Source: Arabidopsis thaliana
Taxonomy: Eukaryota; Streptophyta; Magnoliopsida; Brassicales; Brassicaceae
Direction: 5' to 3'
NCBI RefSeq assembly: GCF_000001735.4
Contig: NC_003071.7
Location: forward strand, 9,665,151-9,729,150
Length of the DNA stretch: 64,000 bases
How positions within the stretch are numbered: position 1 is the stretch's first letter; the number at the start of each line of letters is the position of its first letter. A model generated the notes under the pieces. It saw only the letters and a program-made list of their open reading frames with translations, did not search any database and had not been told where the DNA came from. Below, one piece after another: positions 3,620 through 62,016 of this stretch. A program made the translations under genes and the position numbers.

Positions 3620-3665
3620 ATCGCGCAAATTCTTTTTTTTTTTTTTTTTTATCGAGCAAATTCTT
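3620..3665 (-). mobile_element. Poly(T) insertion with 15-bp direct repeats
   Basis: The 15-bp sequence ATCGNGCAAATTCTT occurs at 3620-3634 and 3651-3665 with one mismatch (C or A). Between them is nothing but 16 T (3635-3650). This fits a retroposition event that left only its A-tail, on the minus strand. Slippage alone would not duplicate the flank. Confidence 0.5.
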
Positions 3666-3834
3666 GATATTGATGTAACACTTAACTTACTATATATTAC
3701 TAATGATTTTGATAAAGATATTCAAATCAATGATTAAGTAACACGTTATTATTTATTTATTTATTGCATGTTCAAATTCATTCAACTCCACTAATTAATC
3801 AATTATCACCTTTAAGTTTCTAATCTTGTTTCTC

Positions 3835-3890
3835 TGTAGAATACAATATCTTCTTCTTTTTTTTTTGTCGTGTGTAGAATACAATATCTT
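3835..3890 (-). mobile_element. 20-bp poly(T) insert with 18-bp direct repeats
   Basis: TGTAGAATACAATATCTT occurs perfectly at 3835-3852 and 3873-3890. The 20-bp insert between, read on the minus strand, is CACGAC followed by ten A and GAAG. Interpreted as an extremely truncated retroposon with its target-site duplication. Confidence 0.55.
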
Positions 3891-5670
3891 TTCTTAATTA
3901 AGAATCTGAGTCCATGCATTCCCGTGTCTTCTTTTCTTATTCTTGAGGTTTGAAACTAAGACTATTTTTGACATTGTTCTTTTTGTTAAATTTTTCTTTT
4001 TTTGACGTTGTTAGGTCAAGACCTGAGAGTTAAGAGGAAACAGTACAATCATATCCAAAGCACATCCAGTAATTATAATAGGGCCACTTGACCGTACATC
4101 CATTAACCAACACATCCTGACATGCATACTGATAATAAACTAATCATATTCCCTTAAAACGTAACAAATTGCAGAAGCTTATATAATAAAAGTTTCTTTG
4201 TCTACTTCTTTTTGTTCTTTTTCGTTACCAAATTAGTGTTTGACTTCCAAAATTTACTCCTACAACAAAATTATTAGTGAGCGTTTATAAGAAAATATTA
4301 ATTATGCACCAATAGATATAAATAACACATGTTAATTTCTCACGTTACACTGGATATGCGGATCCCATCAAACTATTTTTCATCATAGAGAATTGGATCT
4401 TGAACAACGAAAAAGTTCTAATTATTATACCTTAATCATGTGCATGACTGCATGTATATATTATACAAATGATTTCAAGATGCTTGATGCTTATATTTTG
4501 GGGTGAGGTAATAGAGGGATCGAGAGATTAGTTGTCTCTTGCCTGTCATTTCTCCAATAGATTATTAGACTAACTCACGTGCTTTTTATTTTGAAAGGCT
4601 GATTATTTCAACACTTCCAACAAAACTTTATGAGTACGTATATATAAAATAAATTAATGAGTTTTCTTAACCTAGATTACCATGGTTGCACAAGACACTA
4701 GACCCTCAAAAGAGTCAGCTGTGTCTCTCTCAATAACTATTCGCAAGCACTTTATTTTCTTAAGAGTATAAATTTTGCAAATATATATCTAATTAAAGGG
4801 GTCTATATTTCAATTATATTCTTATATGTGTAACTCATTGGAAATAACATGCTTCTGTGTTAATATTACCAGTGTATGGTAAAAAATAAAATAGAATGAG
4901 CGATATACTGAAAAATCTAGTGATGATTTCTATGTATCTAGTGATAGAATAGACGAGAACTATTTTTCCAACGAAAACGTAACTCATTAGTTCATATGTT
5001 TTCTTTTCTTTTCTAAAAGAAATAATCTTAATTATTTATGTGCATATGTGTGTGTGTGTTATTTATAGATAAGCCCTAGCCAATCACATTCTAAATATGT
5101 ATTATATTAGAAAGTCTTATATATATGTTTATATAGATCATAATTTTTCTTTCTTTCTGAAATGTAATTTTGATAAAGTGATTGTACATTTTGGTTTCTT
5201 TTCTACCTACCCATTAAAATTGACAAGTTGTAAGTTGTAACAATGTCATAACCAATAGTTGATACCTCAGAAACATGTCATAACCAATAGTCCAATACTA
5301 TATCAAATACAAAAACAAATCAAGGGAAGATCTTGGGTTGGCGCAATACTAACAAGTAACAAGTGAGAAAAAAAAGTAATGAAAGAAAATACATTTTTCT
5401 ATATATATGAACAATGATTGAACCCACCATATATTGAGGATGAATGCAAATTCTTTGTTTATTTCTGATTAGCGACCGTTGTTTAAAATGAACAAGATAT
5501 AATTGTTTGAATACATTCTTGTTGGCAATATATAGGGAAGATTTAAGAAGATGATATTATTAGGTATTCATGAAGATTTCGTAATCTTTTCTTAACCCTA
5601 CATCAATATTAGTATTAAACCAAAGATCAAGGGAATAATATCTTATCAAAATGGAGAAAGATTATTTCTT

Positions 5671-58796: not shown

Positions 58797-61120
58797 TTAA
58801 GGAGGAGCACGGTATATGGCAGGGATTGTACGAGGGAAGAACATTTGTCTAACTCCCTCTGCTTTAATTATTGGAAAGATGATGCTTGAAGCACTCTGTG
58901 AAAAAGAAAAATATCAAAGATCAAACTTCTTTGCGATGTTGTGTATATACCACAATGGGAAGAGCCACATACCGAGATTATCCTAGCTCCAAGCCAAAAG
59001 CTCTCAATCGAAGGAAATGGTAGCATTAAACGACAAACAGCGTAGATCGCCACAGCAAAGAAGTGGAGAACTAAACTCAGAGGACGAGGGTTTAAACCAG
59101 AGAGCAATGCAACTGGACCAGATGAGAAAACACCTCCAAGGCTAAGATAGTCGAAGCAAGCTTCACGCATTTCCGTTCTTGCTTCATCTGAAGATGCTAA
59201 AAAGACCTTATACAACGCATCCGCCAATGTATTAATGGTGGAAGCTACAGGCTGTTGCAAGGCGACACATAAGTCCACTAATCAAAACATAAAGAAGCGT
59301 TTACTTTTAACTAAAGAGATGCTTACTTTTCGTAGTGTGTAAAAGGATTCAATATACTTAGACAAAGCTTCTTTGTCATTAAGGTTGCGAATTGGCCTTA
59401 GAAGATCACGGAGTACAACTATATCCGCCAATGCAACGGTCATCCCACCACCGGTTAAAGGATGTCTCATGTTGAATGCATCACCAAGAAGAAGAGCTCC
59501 AGGAGTAGGAATCGGATCAGCTGGCATGCTTCGGTTTGGCATGGTTCTGATATTACCTTTCTCAACAGCGGTGATGAATGCTTCACGGACCTTGGTTGGT
59601 ACTTGAGGCGCAACCCGTGTTTTCAGATACTTTGCCATTTCACCATTTGCAATGGGAGGAAGTTTTTGACCCGGTACATCTACTAAGCAACGGACTTCAG
59701 AACTGCTGATGGGATACATTAAGATGGGTGATGGGTCACCGAGAACAACGTGCCCGTGATTTGCAAATGGAAGTTCACAGTTCTCCAAGACAAGACCCAC
59801 AAAAGTAGATGGCACATCCACCTTAGGTTTGCAAAGAGAGCGACGCAAGTTGGAGAAACAACCATCACATACAATTGTGAGAGGAGCAAATGATCTAAAC
59901 TCATTGCCCTCTTTTGTTCTGTATCGAACCCCTTTAATTGTCCCGTGTTCTTCAAGCAACGACGTAACCGTTCCTTGTTCCAATCGTACACTGATTCACA
60001 AACAAACCGTTAGAGTCAAGCTGGATTCAATTAAAGAAACAATCAATATAAAGATTACTTTGAAAGAGTAAGGGCTTTTTCTCGCATTCTCTGTACAAAT
60101 CTCCCATTATGGAAACTTCTCCCGGCTACATCCGAATCAAACGTTTCCAAGGGGTAAGCAAGTTTAGTATGCTTCCCATCTTTAAAGAGAACATAACCAA
60201 GAACTCGTTGAGCATCAATCTTCTTCACACAATCTACAATCACAAAACGCAACTATAGAACAAAAATCGATTCCAAGTATATATATATATAACAGTTTAA
60301 GCTCATTAGTTAGTCTCTACCTTCAAGTCCAAGTTCTATTAACTTCAAATAACCACCAGGTTGAAGCAATTCACCAACGATTCTGTCTTGCTCAGAAAAA
60401 TCTCTTTCTATAACGTGCACTCTTCTTCCTTCCTTCAATAACCACACAAAGGCCAAAATTTCAGACAAGAACTTACGTCTCCAACACACAAAAATCAGAC
60501 AAGTATATATCTCCAATGTTCCGGGAACTAATATCACATCATTTTTGTGATCTTATTACAAAAAATATAATCAAAAACAAATTATATTACAAAATAAATG
60601 TTAAAATTTATTGAAATGAATTTAGAAAAATAAATTTTCATGAATAAATTTGGAGAAATGCAAAAATCAAAAATTGAGATTATAGACTTGCCTTGCCGAG
60701 AGTATGAGCAAGAGCGGAACCGGCGACACCAGCTCCGACGATGATCACATCAGTGCCAGAATCAACCTCCGTTTCAAGATTTTTGGATACGGTATCGTTT
60801 TGGGAAACGACGAGTCCACGATTCTTCTTATTCTTATTACTACTCCGACGCAAAATGTAGAGAAGCAGAAACGTAAATAGAGAAGCTATAAATTGATCCA
60901 ACGCAATCTTCGCCGGTTTCATCATCACCGTGGAGTTCACGGCGGAGAGTTTGAGTGTCTGCGCCGCCGTTGCTTTCCATCGGCGAATGTAGGTGGCTCC
61001 GGTGGTGAATCGACGAGTAGAGAGAGAGAATCGAGAAGAGGGGCGATGATTTGTGTAGAGAAGCGAAGATCTAAGAGTTGATTGAAATCTTGGAAGGTTC
61101 CTGATTACGAATGGTTTCAT
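58797..61120 (-). CDS. SQE2: Squalene epoxidase (squalene monooxygenase) SQE2
   Basis: Six exons on the minus strand: 60692-61120, 60321-60432, 60059-60233, 59327-59990, 58973-59251, 58797-58895. They give 585 residues, the expected length. Intron 1 has a GC donor (AAG/GCAAGT) paired with a normal AG acceptor; the other four are GT-AG. A basic Ser/Arg-rich N-terminal extension is followed by a hydrophobic segment at ~73-91 ([18 protein letters not shown]), probably an ER anchor. The FAD-binding fingerprint [20 protein letters not shown] (GxGxxG at 129-134) comes next. The second FAD motif is [20 protein letters not shown], and hydrophobic segments close the C-terminus ([14 protein letters not shown]). 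It oxidises squalene to 2,3-oxidosqualene, the precursor of sterols and triterpenes. From memory SQE3 is its closest paralogue, on chromosome 4. Confidence 0.97.
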
Positions 61121-61980
61121 AATTTTTTGTTTAGTTTAAGACAAACGAATATTGCTAGATCAAATATCTAGAACCGAACTAAAACCGAGAAAAGAAAAAT
61201 TCTGAATTGACTCCAAACCGATAAATTATTCCAAAGGATTATAGACTTTTATACTCAAAATATCGGAATAAAATCCGAATAGATATCCAATATAATAATT
61301 ATATTTAAATTTGATGTAGTCTAGTTATCCAAAAACTAAAACCATAAACTTAGGAAAGTAATTACTTTTATATTTAAAAAAAAAAAAAAATCGAAGTTTT
61401 AGTTTTTTATAAAAAAAAATTACTATTTTTAAATTATTTTTTAATATTCCAGGTACTTGAAATCGAACCGAATCTGGAGAGATCCGGATCAATCAAGTCC
61501 AGAAAAAACCAAACCAAATAATTGATTGGATCTTAAATCTTTATATCCAAAGTACTTGAAATCAAATGGATCTACTCGAAACCAAACTGAATTTCTGTTT
61601 AGTAGTAGTAGCTAGTGATGGGAGTGTAACATTATTGTATTTTTGAGTAATAATAAATTTTCTTTTGAATGAAAAAATAACAAAATAGTTTGTTAATTTT
61701 ATCAAATGTATATTCTTAATCCCATAAATAATCTAATAGAGCAAAAACTTGCAGTTTATACCTTTAAGGTTTTGAATTCTTATAATAAAACGTTTAGTTG
61801 TCAATATTGCTACTTTTAACCTTTAAATGGTTATTGTGTTCAGGGTTCCACAAAATTAACTGACAAATTGATTATGTTAACAAAAGATATTCATTTTTGT
61901 TATAAATATTGATATGACTCTAATAATTATTTTTCTTTTAGTAAACTTTTAATATCTATTAAATTTTATATTTATGACTA

Positions 61981-62016
61981 ATAAGATATTTGATAAAAAA
62001 AAATCATAAGATATTT
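61981..62016 (+). mobile_element. 14-bp A-run insert with 11-bp direct repeats (weak)
   Basis: ATAAGATATTT occurs at 61981-61991 and 62006-62016 around GATAAAAAAAAATC. The A-run is not terminal and the repeat is AT-only, so this is one of the least certain members of the class. Confidence 0.3.

Follow-up and report, generated by a model that had tools for sequence, protein, structure and literature searches.

Very short tailed insertions can be compared with several known systems. Copies of plant long interspersed elements (LINEs) that are truncated at their 5' end extend over hundreds to thousands of base pairs. In Arabidopsis thaliana, the L1 clade of these elements includes ATLN, while short interspersed elements (SINEs) and processed pseudogenes of the Brassicaceae are thought, in the account given by the same source, to use LINE machinery through their poly(A) tail; one monocot L1 lineage is described there as ending in a 3' hairpin followed by CGAG (PMC3747384). 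In human disease genes, simple poly(A) or poly(T) insertions have been described that depend on the L1 endonuclease, and a severely truncated Alu, L1 or processed pseudogene has been suggested as their origin (PMC3219598). As far as this source lists them, they account for three of the 48 insertions in a systematic list and, as one poly(T), for one of 18 insertions in NF1, with tails of 60-178 bp. Judged by title and abstract, no description of micro-insertions of this kind in plants was found in the open-access literature. Here we analyse a 64,000-nt stretch of A. thaliana DNA (C2:9665151-9729150; hereafter the window), together with the rest of the assembly (119.66 Mb in seven contigs). An earlier note on this sequence had pointed to 19 loci at which a short insert with a run of A or T lies between direct repeats. 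All but one of these loci are very probably insertions made by target-primed reverse transcription (TPRT) with the plant's own L1-type LINE machinery, in which only about 7 nt of the RNA body were copied besides the tail.

Layout and polarity of the insertions

All 19 loci were recovered, at most 1-2 nt from the starts listed in the earlier note. Described on the A-rich strand, 18 of them share one layout, i.e., a repeat, a remnant of 0-9 nt, an A-run and the second repeat copy. The exception, 14404, was rejected as a member, its A17 being internal to a 60-nt insert and followed by 29 further bases. The two repeat copies are identical as cut in every locus except 3620, and the A-run adjoins the 3' copy in 18 of 19, at a distance of 0 to 4 nt. 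Remnants measure 3-9 nt in 15 loci and 0-2 nt in three (3620, 11519 and 11564); only 3620 is a pure A insert, the 17 other fitting loci having a remnant of 1-9 nt. At 5671 and 45610 the tail is AAAATAAAATAA-like, and 30442 has a short one.

The polarity of this layout was compared with a mirror geometry, in which the A-run stands beside the opposite repeat copy, and with permuted downstream flanks. A mismatch-tolerant scan of 160 A-tails on both window strands (10 permutations) gave 15 loci with remnants of 3-10 nt, versus none in the mirror geometry and 0.0 with permuted flanks, and none with remnants of 21-160 nt. For remnants of 0-2 nt, the real geometry gave three loci and the mirror four; polarity is uninformative here, since an A-run with nothing else between the repeats looks almost the same in both geometries, and these three loci, indistinguishable from the mirror, are recognised by their repeats only. 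Among the 89 window A-runs of at least 8 nt, exact repeats of at least 10 nt were present at 10, versus one in the mirror geometry and a permuted mean of 0.32 (maximum 2; 50 permutations).

The same excess appears when the spacer is ignored. Exact repeats of at least 12 nt with spacers of 4-60 nt, two tandem arrays excluded, number 26 pairs versus 0-2 per dinucleotide shuffle (20 shuffles), and an A/T run of at least 7 nt occupies the spacer in 15 of these pairs and in none from any shuffle. Sixteen pairs were on the earlier list. Most of the remaining 10 lack an A-run, and a second class of short duplications therefore exists; examples at 5243, 25592 and 45330, with 17-22 bp repeats around 10-19 nt, are perhaps break-repair duplications with filler.

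Over 35 loci, a few of which have 2-3 mismatches, the repeats measure 11-20 nt with a median of 16, which suits LINE target-site duplications (about 7-20 bp) and agrees with the target-duplication length that the note had invoked. Its placing of the inserts outside coding exons is borne out insofar as none of the 19 loci overlaps any of 28 stop-to-stop frames of at least 110 aa, exons being judged by frames alone.

The note had also proposed a check for empty sites with a single repeat copy, and paralogy supplied clean ones at two loci. The 50897 locus lies in a duplicated stretch of the window, and its joined flanks align with the paralogue at 47891-48060 in one ungapped match of 91 nt (84.6%), whereas the filled locus splits in two. 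At L012 (C1:21946298), one of the TTCGAC loci considered below, the joined flanks match C1:21948562-21948756, which holds one repeat copy, over 205 columns (79%, 10 gap positions), and here too the filled sequence splits. Both insertions were thus made into a single-copy site. Of nine TTCGAC loci queried with joined flanks, L012 alone had a full-length paralogue; C5:8271837, tried as a second empty site for it, was unusable, its similarity being confined to the right part. When 17 of the 19 window loci (all but 29945 and 30442) were queried against the genome, no further empty site turned up among the best candidates, to which scoring was limited.

LINE termini in the remnants

The window inserts are not source-less, because many carry recognisable LINE termini. 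The first such LINE, L011, is a 5'-truncated copy of about 1.3 kb within a 13-bp repeat, with the domains RVT_3 (PF13456) and zf-RVT (PF13966), and its 3' end reads TTTTCGAC-A11. Used as a query, its RNase H piece gave 149 matches among the 150 scored of 257 candidates, some of the matches being perhaps host RNase H proteins. From these matches, 20 LINE 3' ends were examined; where a script located the tail, in 18 of them, it begins at 47-88 nt of the cut (the tail starts of L061, L064 and L070 were placed by eye), and the termini before it include TATTTGAC, CCATTTAAC, CTGTGTCC, TTTTGTCC, CCTTTGATC, GCTGTTTG and TTATTTGCCC.

With 22 LINE ends as reference (L059-L078, L011 and L044) and 228 A-runs without repeats as control, the last five bases of the remnant match a LINE terminus exactly in 7 of the 14 window remnants of at least 5 nt, versus 9 of 228 controls (p=3e-6). 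Adding six more loci gives 7/20 (p=5e-5), or 8/21 with L031:7529, which was excluded as it had been chosen by eye partly for its TTTCGAC; removing the TCGAC class and its LINEs leaves 4/16 versus the same 9/228 (p=0.006). L031:7529 itself has 15-bp repeats around TTTCGACAAAAACA and is likely a TTCGAC-type micro-insertion with a short tail.

Of the 22 LINE ends, 13 have AATGA at 19-23 nt from the tail and 18 have TTT between -4 and -9, the sequence between the two being variable. AATGA at this position resembles a plant polyadenylation signal, and the remnant therefore probably consists simply of the final bases ahead of the cleavage site.

If the inserts consist of a LINE terminus and its tail, other sites of such a terminus should frequently be micro-insertions, and TTTGCCC was searched on this ground. 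TTTGCCC-A10 occurs at 49 genome sites and the reversed pattern at none. In a sample of 85 nt at 16 of the 49 (rows 1, 3 ... 31 of the list), repeats were found at 10 (permuted mean 0.75, maximum 4): eight sites have 14-17 nt repeats and 6-8 nt remnants, while L086 (7-nt remnant) and L091 have 8-nt repeats. By eye, L081 is a further micro-insertion with an interrupted tail, and L082, L087 and L094 resemble longer LINE ends. At the TTCGAC-A10 sites, all flanks of which were examined, repeats flank 15 of 28 (permuted mean 1.05, maximum 5), and remnants are 4-8 nt, except at L016 (11 nt as script-cut, 8 by eye allowing one mismatch). By word count alone, TTTTGAC-A10 has 57 sites versus 16 for the reversed pattern.

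These sets also reveal how far copying went. In 23 curated loci with a recognised terminus, agreement with the LINE end next to the tail extends over 5-8 nt, mostly 7, when bases shared at the junction are counted (mean 6.9, standard deviation 0.67), and tail lengths have a standard deviation of 4.9. Remnants, tail lengths and copied lengths were curated by hand from scan outputs; from the 15 TTCGAC repeat matches, L053 (3 mismatches) and L055 were excluded, and from the 10 TTTGCCC matches, L086 and L091, for their 8-nt repeats. The window loci were chosen without regard to a terminus, and their remnants span 3-9 nt, with 14 of 15 at 5-9 nt. The examined loci thus have a sharp upper limit of copied length, and the near-constant end point in two LINE families of different sequence points to a position on the template.

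How copying may have ended

In the mechanism that we propose, a nick would be opened at the target, the poly(A) tail of a LINE RNA, or sometimes perhaps of an mRNA, would anneal and be copied, copying would end about 7 nt into the RNA body, and closure of the second strand would leave the repeat, about 7 nt, the A-tail and the repeat again. The target-primed origin put forward in the earlier note finds support in the 15:0 polarity, the 11-20 nt repeats, the two empty sites, the matches to LINE ends and the outcome of the genome-wide prediction; it does not extend to 14404, and polarity does not speak for the three loci with 0-2 nt remnants. Polarity in the window, repeat lengths and the LINE-terminus identity of many remnants are observed; the nick, the priming and an end point set by template position beside the tail are inferred.

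A number of observations weigh against this reading. Several remnants, among them CTCTACC, CACAC and TGCTTACAC, match no examined LINE end at five bases; they may come from further LINEs or from mRNAs. The excess of T just before the repeat (22/35, background 0.48) and of TT (10/35, background 0.18), expected from the TT|AA site of the L1 endonuclease, is modest. TTCGAC-A10, with its 28 sites, is not much more frequent than its reversed pattern (18), and 13 of the 28 have no script-found repeat; two of these are LINE 3' ends (L011 and L044), some resemble by eye LINE ends or decayed insertions, and others fit neither. Likewise, 6 of the 16 TTTGCCC sites have no script-found repeat, L093 and L096 among them fitting neither type, and the remnant of L091 reaches 12 nt. 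One or two extra bases, which may have been supplied by another LINE copy, stand between repeat and terminus match in 9 of the 23 curated loci, and the lower limit of the motif-selected sets (6 or 7), as opposed to the upper, is imposed by the search words. Finally, a few longer tailed insertions may exist, such as L032:7717 on the minus strand, a 75-nt tailed insert within a 17-nt repeat (1 mismatch) that is a possible retroposon of intermediate length.

Abundance outside the window points the same way. Twenty 10-kb samples of C1 (200 kb) gave five remnants of 3-10 nt versus two mirror cases at score 10, and one versus two at score 12; the 40 kb beside the window added one versus none, so that 240 kb of unselected sequence holds six such loci versus two in the mirror. 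Per A-tail, the window is denser (15/160 versus 6/357; odds ratio 6, Fisher p=1e-4), which is partly selection, since the window was chosen after the pattern had been noticed in it. As the class is thin elsewhere when the terminus is not used as a guide, the genome-wide case is carried by the terminus tests. The six loci in 240 kb, together with the 49, 57 and 28 sites of the three terminus-A10 words, not all of which are micro-insertions, suggest, as a rough guess, a genome total in the hundreds, possibly more.

Weighing both sides, we retain TPRT with an early end of copying. A broader proposal, to which we give nearly even chances, is that such insertions are a frequent by-product of plant L1 activity, with a fixed stop about 7 nt before the tail whatever the LINE family, owing either to a defined block or to trimming of the template, and that they seed tailed micro-inserts in gene-rich spacers and record LINE activity. 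As to what fixes the end point, we favour a trimmed template, in which a tail-bound protein protects a few bases, or an enzyme anchored at the tail, over random fall-off, and rank both above microhomology and above selection on ordinary truncation.

The first of these is the account to which we tentatively give most weight. Degradation of LINE RNA from its 5' end would halt where the protein holding the tail shields it, leaving about 7 nt plus the tail as sole template. Measured from the start of the tail, the end point hardly varies in two LINE families (TTTTCGAC and TTTGCCC) and, as expected if template position decides, shows no correlation with tail length (Spearman -0.31, p=0.15, n=23); this correlation test is weak because tails change length after insertion, and the trimmed RNA is a postulate.

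That the reverse transcriptase copies the tail and then releases about 7 nt into the body, anchored near the tail as in an abortive start, is slightly less favoured. It would yield an equally sharp end point, and the insertions themselves indicate that first strands so short can be closed, but the 3' stem-loop that might be expected as a landmark is unsupported. A conserved stem-loop acting as a block was rejected, no consensus structure being found among 21 LINE ends, and when 18 LINE ends were folded singly, L069 was the sole one whose fold was equalled by fewer than 10 of 200 shuffles.

Early gap closure by microhomology is unlikely. Here, the complementary DNA (cDNA) copy of the terminal T-run, i.e., A's, would anneal to a T that ends the target strand, and the frequent TTT near LINE ends would supply the pairing partner. 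Among the 14 curated junctions that lack extra bases, 1-3 nt are common to junction and LINE at 8 (p=0.06 versus a T content of 0.34), and T is the last base of 17 of 36 repeats (p=0.07). However, neither test is significant, 6 of the 14 junctions share nothing, and the 9 of 23 loci noted above have extra bases instead.

Less likely again is ordinary 5' truncation of LINEs followed by selection, with all lengths being made and only the shortest persisting in gene-rich arms. Longer copies do exist, as the RNase H matches (149 among 150 scored candidates) attest, but a copy of 9-40 nt should do no more harm than one of 7 nt. Yet among the script-found repeats at the 28 and 16 motif sites only L016 (11 nt; 8 by eye) and L091 (12 nt) exceed 8 nt, within an upstream reach of 130 nt in the TTCGAC set and of only 32 nt before the motif in the TTTGCCC set.

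Repair of staggered breaks can leave short tandem duplications with filler, which have the same sequence of repeat, short insert and repeat. It is improbable that such filler, added without reverse transcription, made the loci described here: repeats with non-A spacers occur in the window (5243, 25592 and 45330) and mirror cases outside it, but filler gives no reason for an A-run solely beside the 3' copy (15:0 in the window) or for matches to LINE termini. Chance can practically be dismissed, since, although the window is 68% AT and rich in A-runs, its counts are approached neither by permuted flanks nor by shuffles, as the earlier note had expected of the repeats, and two loci have empty sites.

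The window loci, their surroundings and known systems

Table 1. Loci of the window, with repeats, remnant and tail read on the A-rich strand.
Position	Strand	Repeats	Remnant (LINE terminus)	Tail	Assignment
3620..3665	-	3620-3634 / 3651-3665 (14/15)	none	A16	probable micro-insertion
3835..3890	-	18 bp	CACGAC	A10, then GAAG	micro-insertion
5671..5716	+	12 bp	GATGTGAAC	AAAATAAAATAAA	micro-insertion
11519..11551	-	12 bp	GC	A7	probable micro-insertion
11564..11608	-	15 bp	C	A10TAAA	probable micro-insertion; 12 bp from 11519..11551
12492..12532	-	11 bp	AATTTG (L065, TTTG)	A12	micro-insertion
14250..14301	+	16 bp	GCTGTCC (L071/L072, TGTCC)	A12	micro-insertion
14404..14497	.	17 bp	60 nt	internal A17	not a fitting member
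14675..14715	+	13 bp	TTCGAC (L011/L044, TTTTCGAC)	A9-10	micro-insertion
15905..15956	-	17 bp	TTTCGAC	A11-13	micro-insertion
16824..16873	+	14 bp	TGCTTACAC	A13	micro-insertion
29945..29995	-	17 bp	CTCTACC	A10-13	micro-insertion
30442..30482	+	16 bp	CACAC	A4-7	micro-insertion
42554..42602	-	15 bp	GTCGAC (TCGAC common to L011)	A13-15	micro-insertion
43453..43495	-	12 bp (alternatively 16 nt, 1 mismatch)	CATAGTT (alternatively GTT)	A11	micro-insertion
45610..45658	+	15 bp	TCTGATC (L070, TTTGATC)	A-rich	micro-insertion
47891..48060	+	single copy			50897 paralogue; empty site
50897..50952	-	17 bp	CCCTTTAAC (L061, TTTAAC)	A13	micro-insertion
54575..54624	-	12 bp	TTTTTGCCC (L077, TTATTTGCCC)	A9TA5TA	micro-insertion
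61981..62016	+	11 bp	GAT (L069, TTTGAT)	A9, then TC	micro-insertion

The high density of the window is found mostly at 3620-16873, where 11 of the 19 loci fall within 13 kb around an apparent bHLH gene cluster. When the window was searched at long range for tailed inserts of 0.5-6 kb, four candidates emerged, of which one is convincing: at 56063-56803, a tailed retroposon of about 700 bp has a perfect 15-bp repeat (TTACATAAACATTAA), A10 and the terminus TTGAGAC. Almost the entire insert recurs as a 90% copy at C4:16471010-16471718, with partial copies elsewhere, and the frame at 56349-56702 inside it has no Pfam match. Other repeated sequence in the window comprises a tandem array at 26972-28096 (units of about 140 bp, 96-99% alike), a 375-bp segment at 48382-48756 with copies at C4:14263456 and C4:14258825 (96-97%), and a dispersed repeat at 51804-52121, which is matched thirteen times at 79-93% identity over about 140-320 nt, mainly in 51804-51977.

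Should the stop prove fixed genome-wide, it would offer a direct handle on what decides where reverse transcription ends in LINE biology. The micro-insertions would then also preserve, in a compact plant genome, a trace of LINE activity that stays hidden from ordinary annotation, and could serve as clean source-tagged markers and as seeds for A/T microsatellites near genes.

Among known systems, duplications with filler share the layout of repeat, insert and repeat, but neither the polarity of the A-run nor a LINE terminus is expected of them. The SINEs and processed pseudogenes of the Brassicaceae differ in that no SINE or gene body is seen in remnants of 0-9 nt. With 5'-truncated plant LINEs of the L1 clade, of which L011 is one copy, the micro-insertions have in common an RNA source, an A-tail and a target-site duplication; unlike them, those of the window retain only 3-9 nt. 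The earlier note knew of no named class for such inserts, and this needs qualifying, since the simple poly(A) insertions of human disease genes, as their source describes them, are the nearest known kind: they too consist of an A-tail and a target-site duplication with little or no body. They are rare, however, whereas the Arabidopsis micro-insertions outnumber every other tailed insertion that the window scans detected, have a body of about 7 nt that often names the source LINE, and obey a sharp limit of length.

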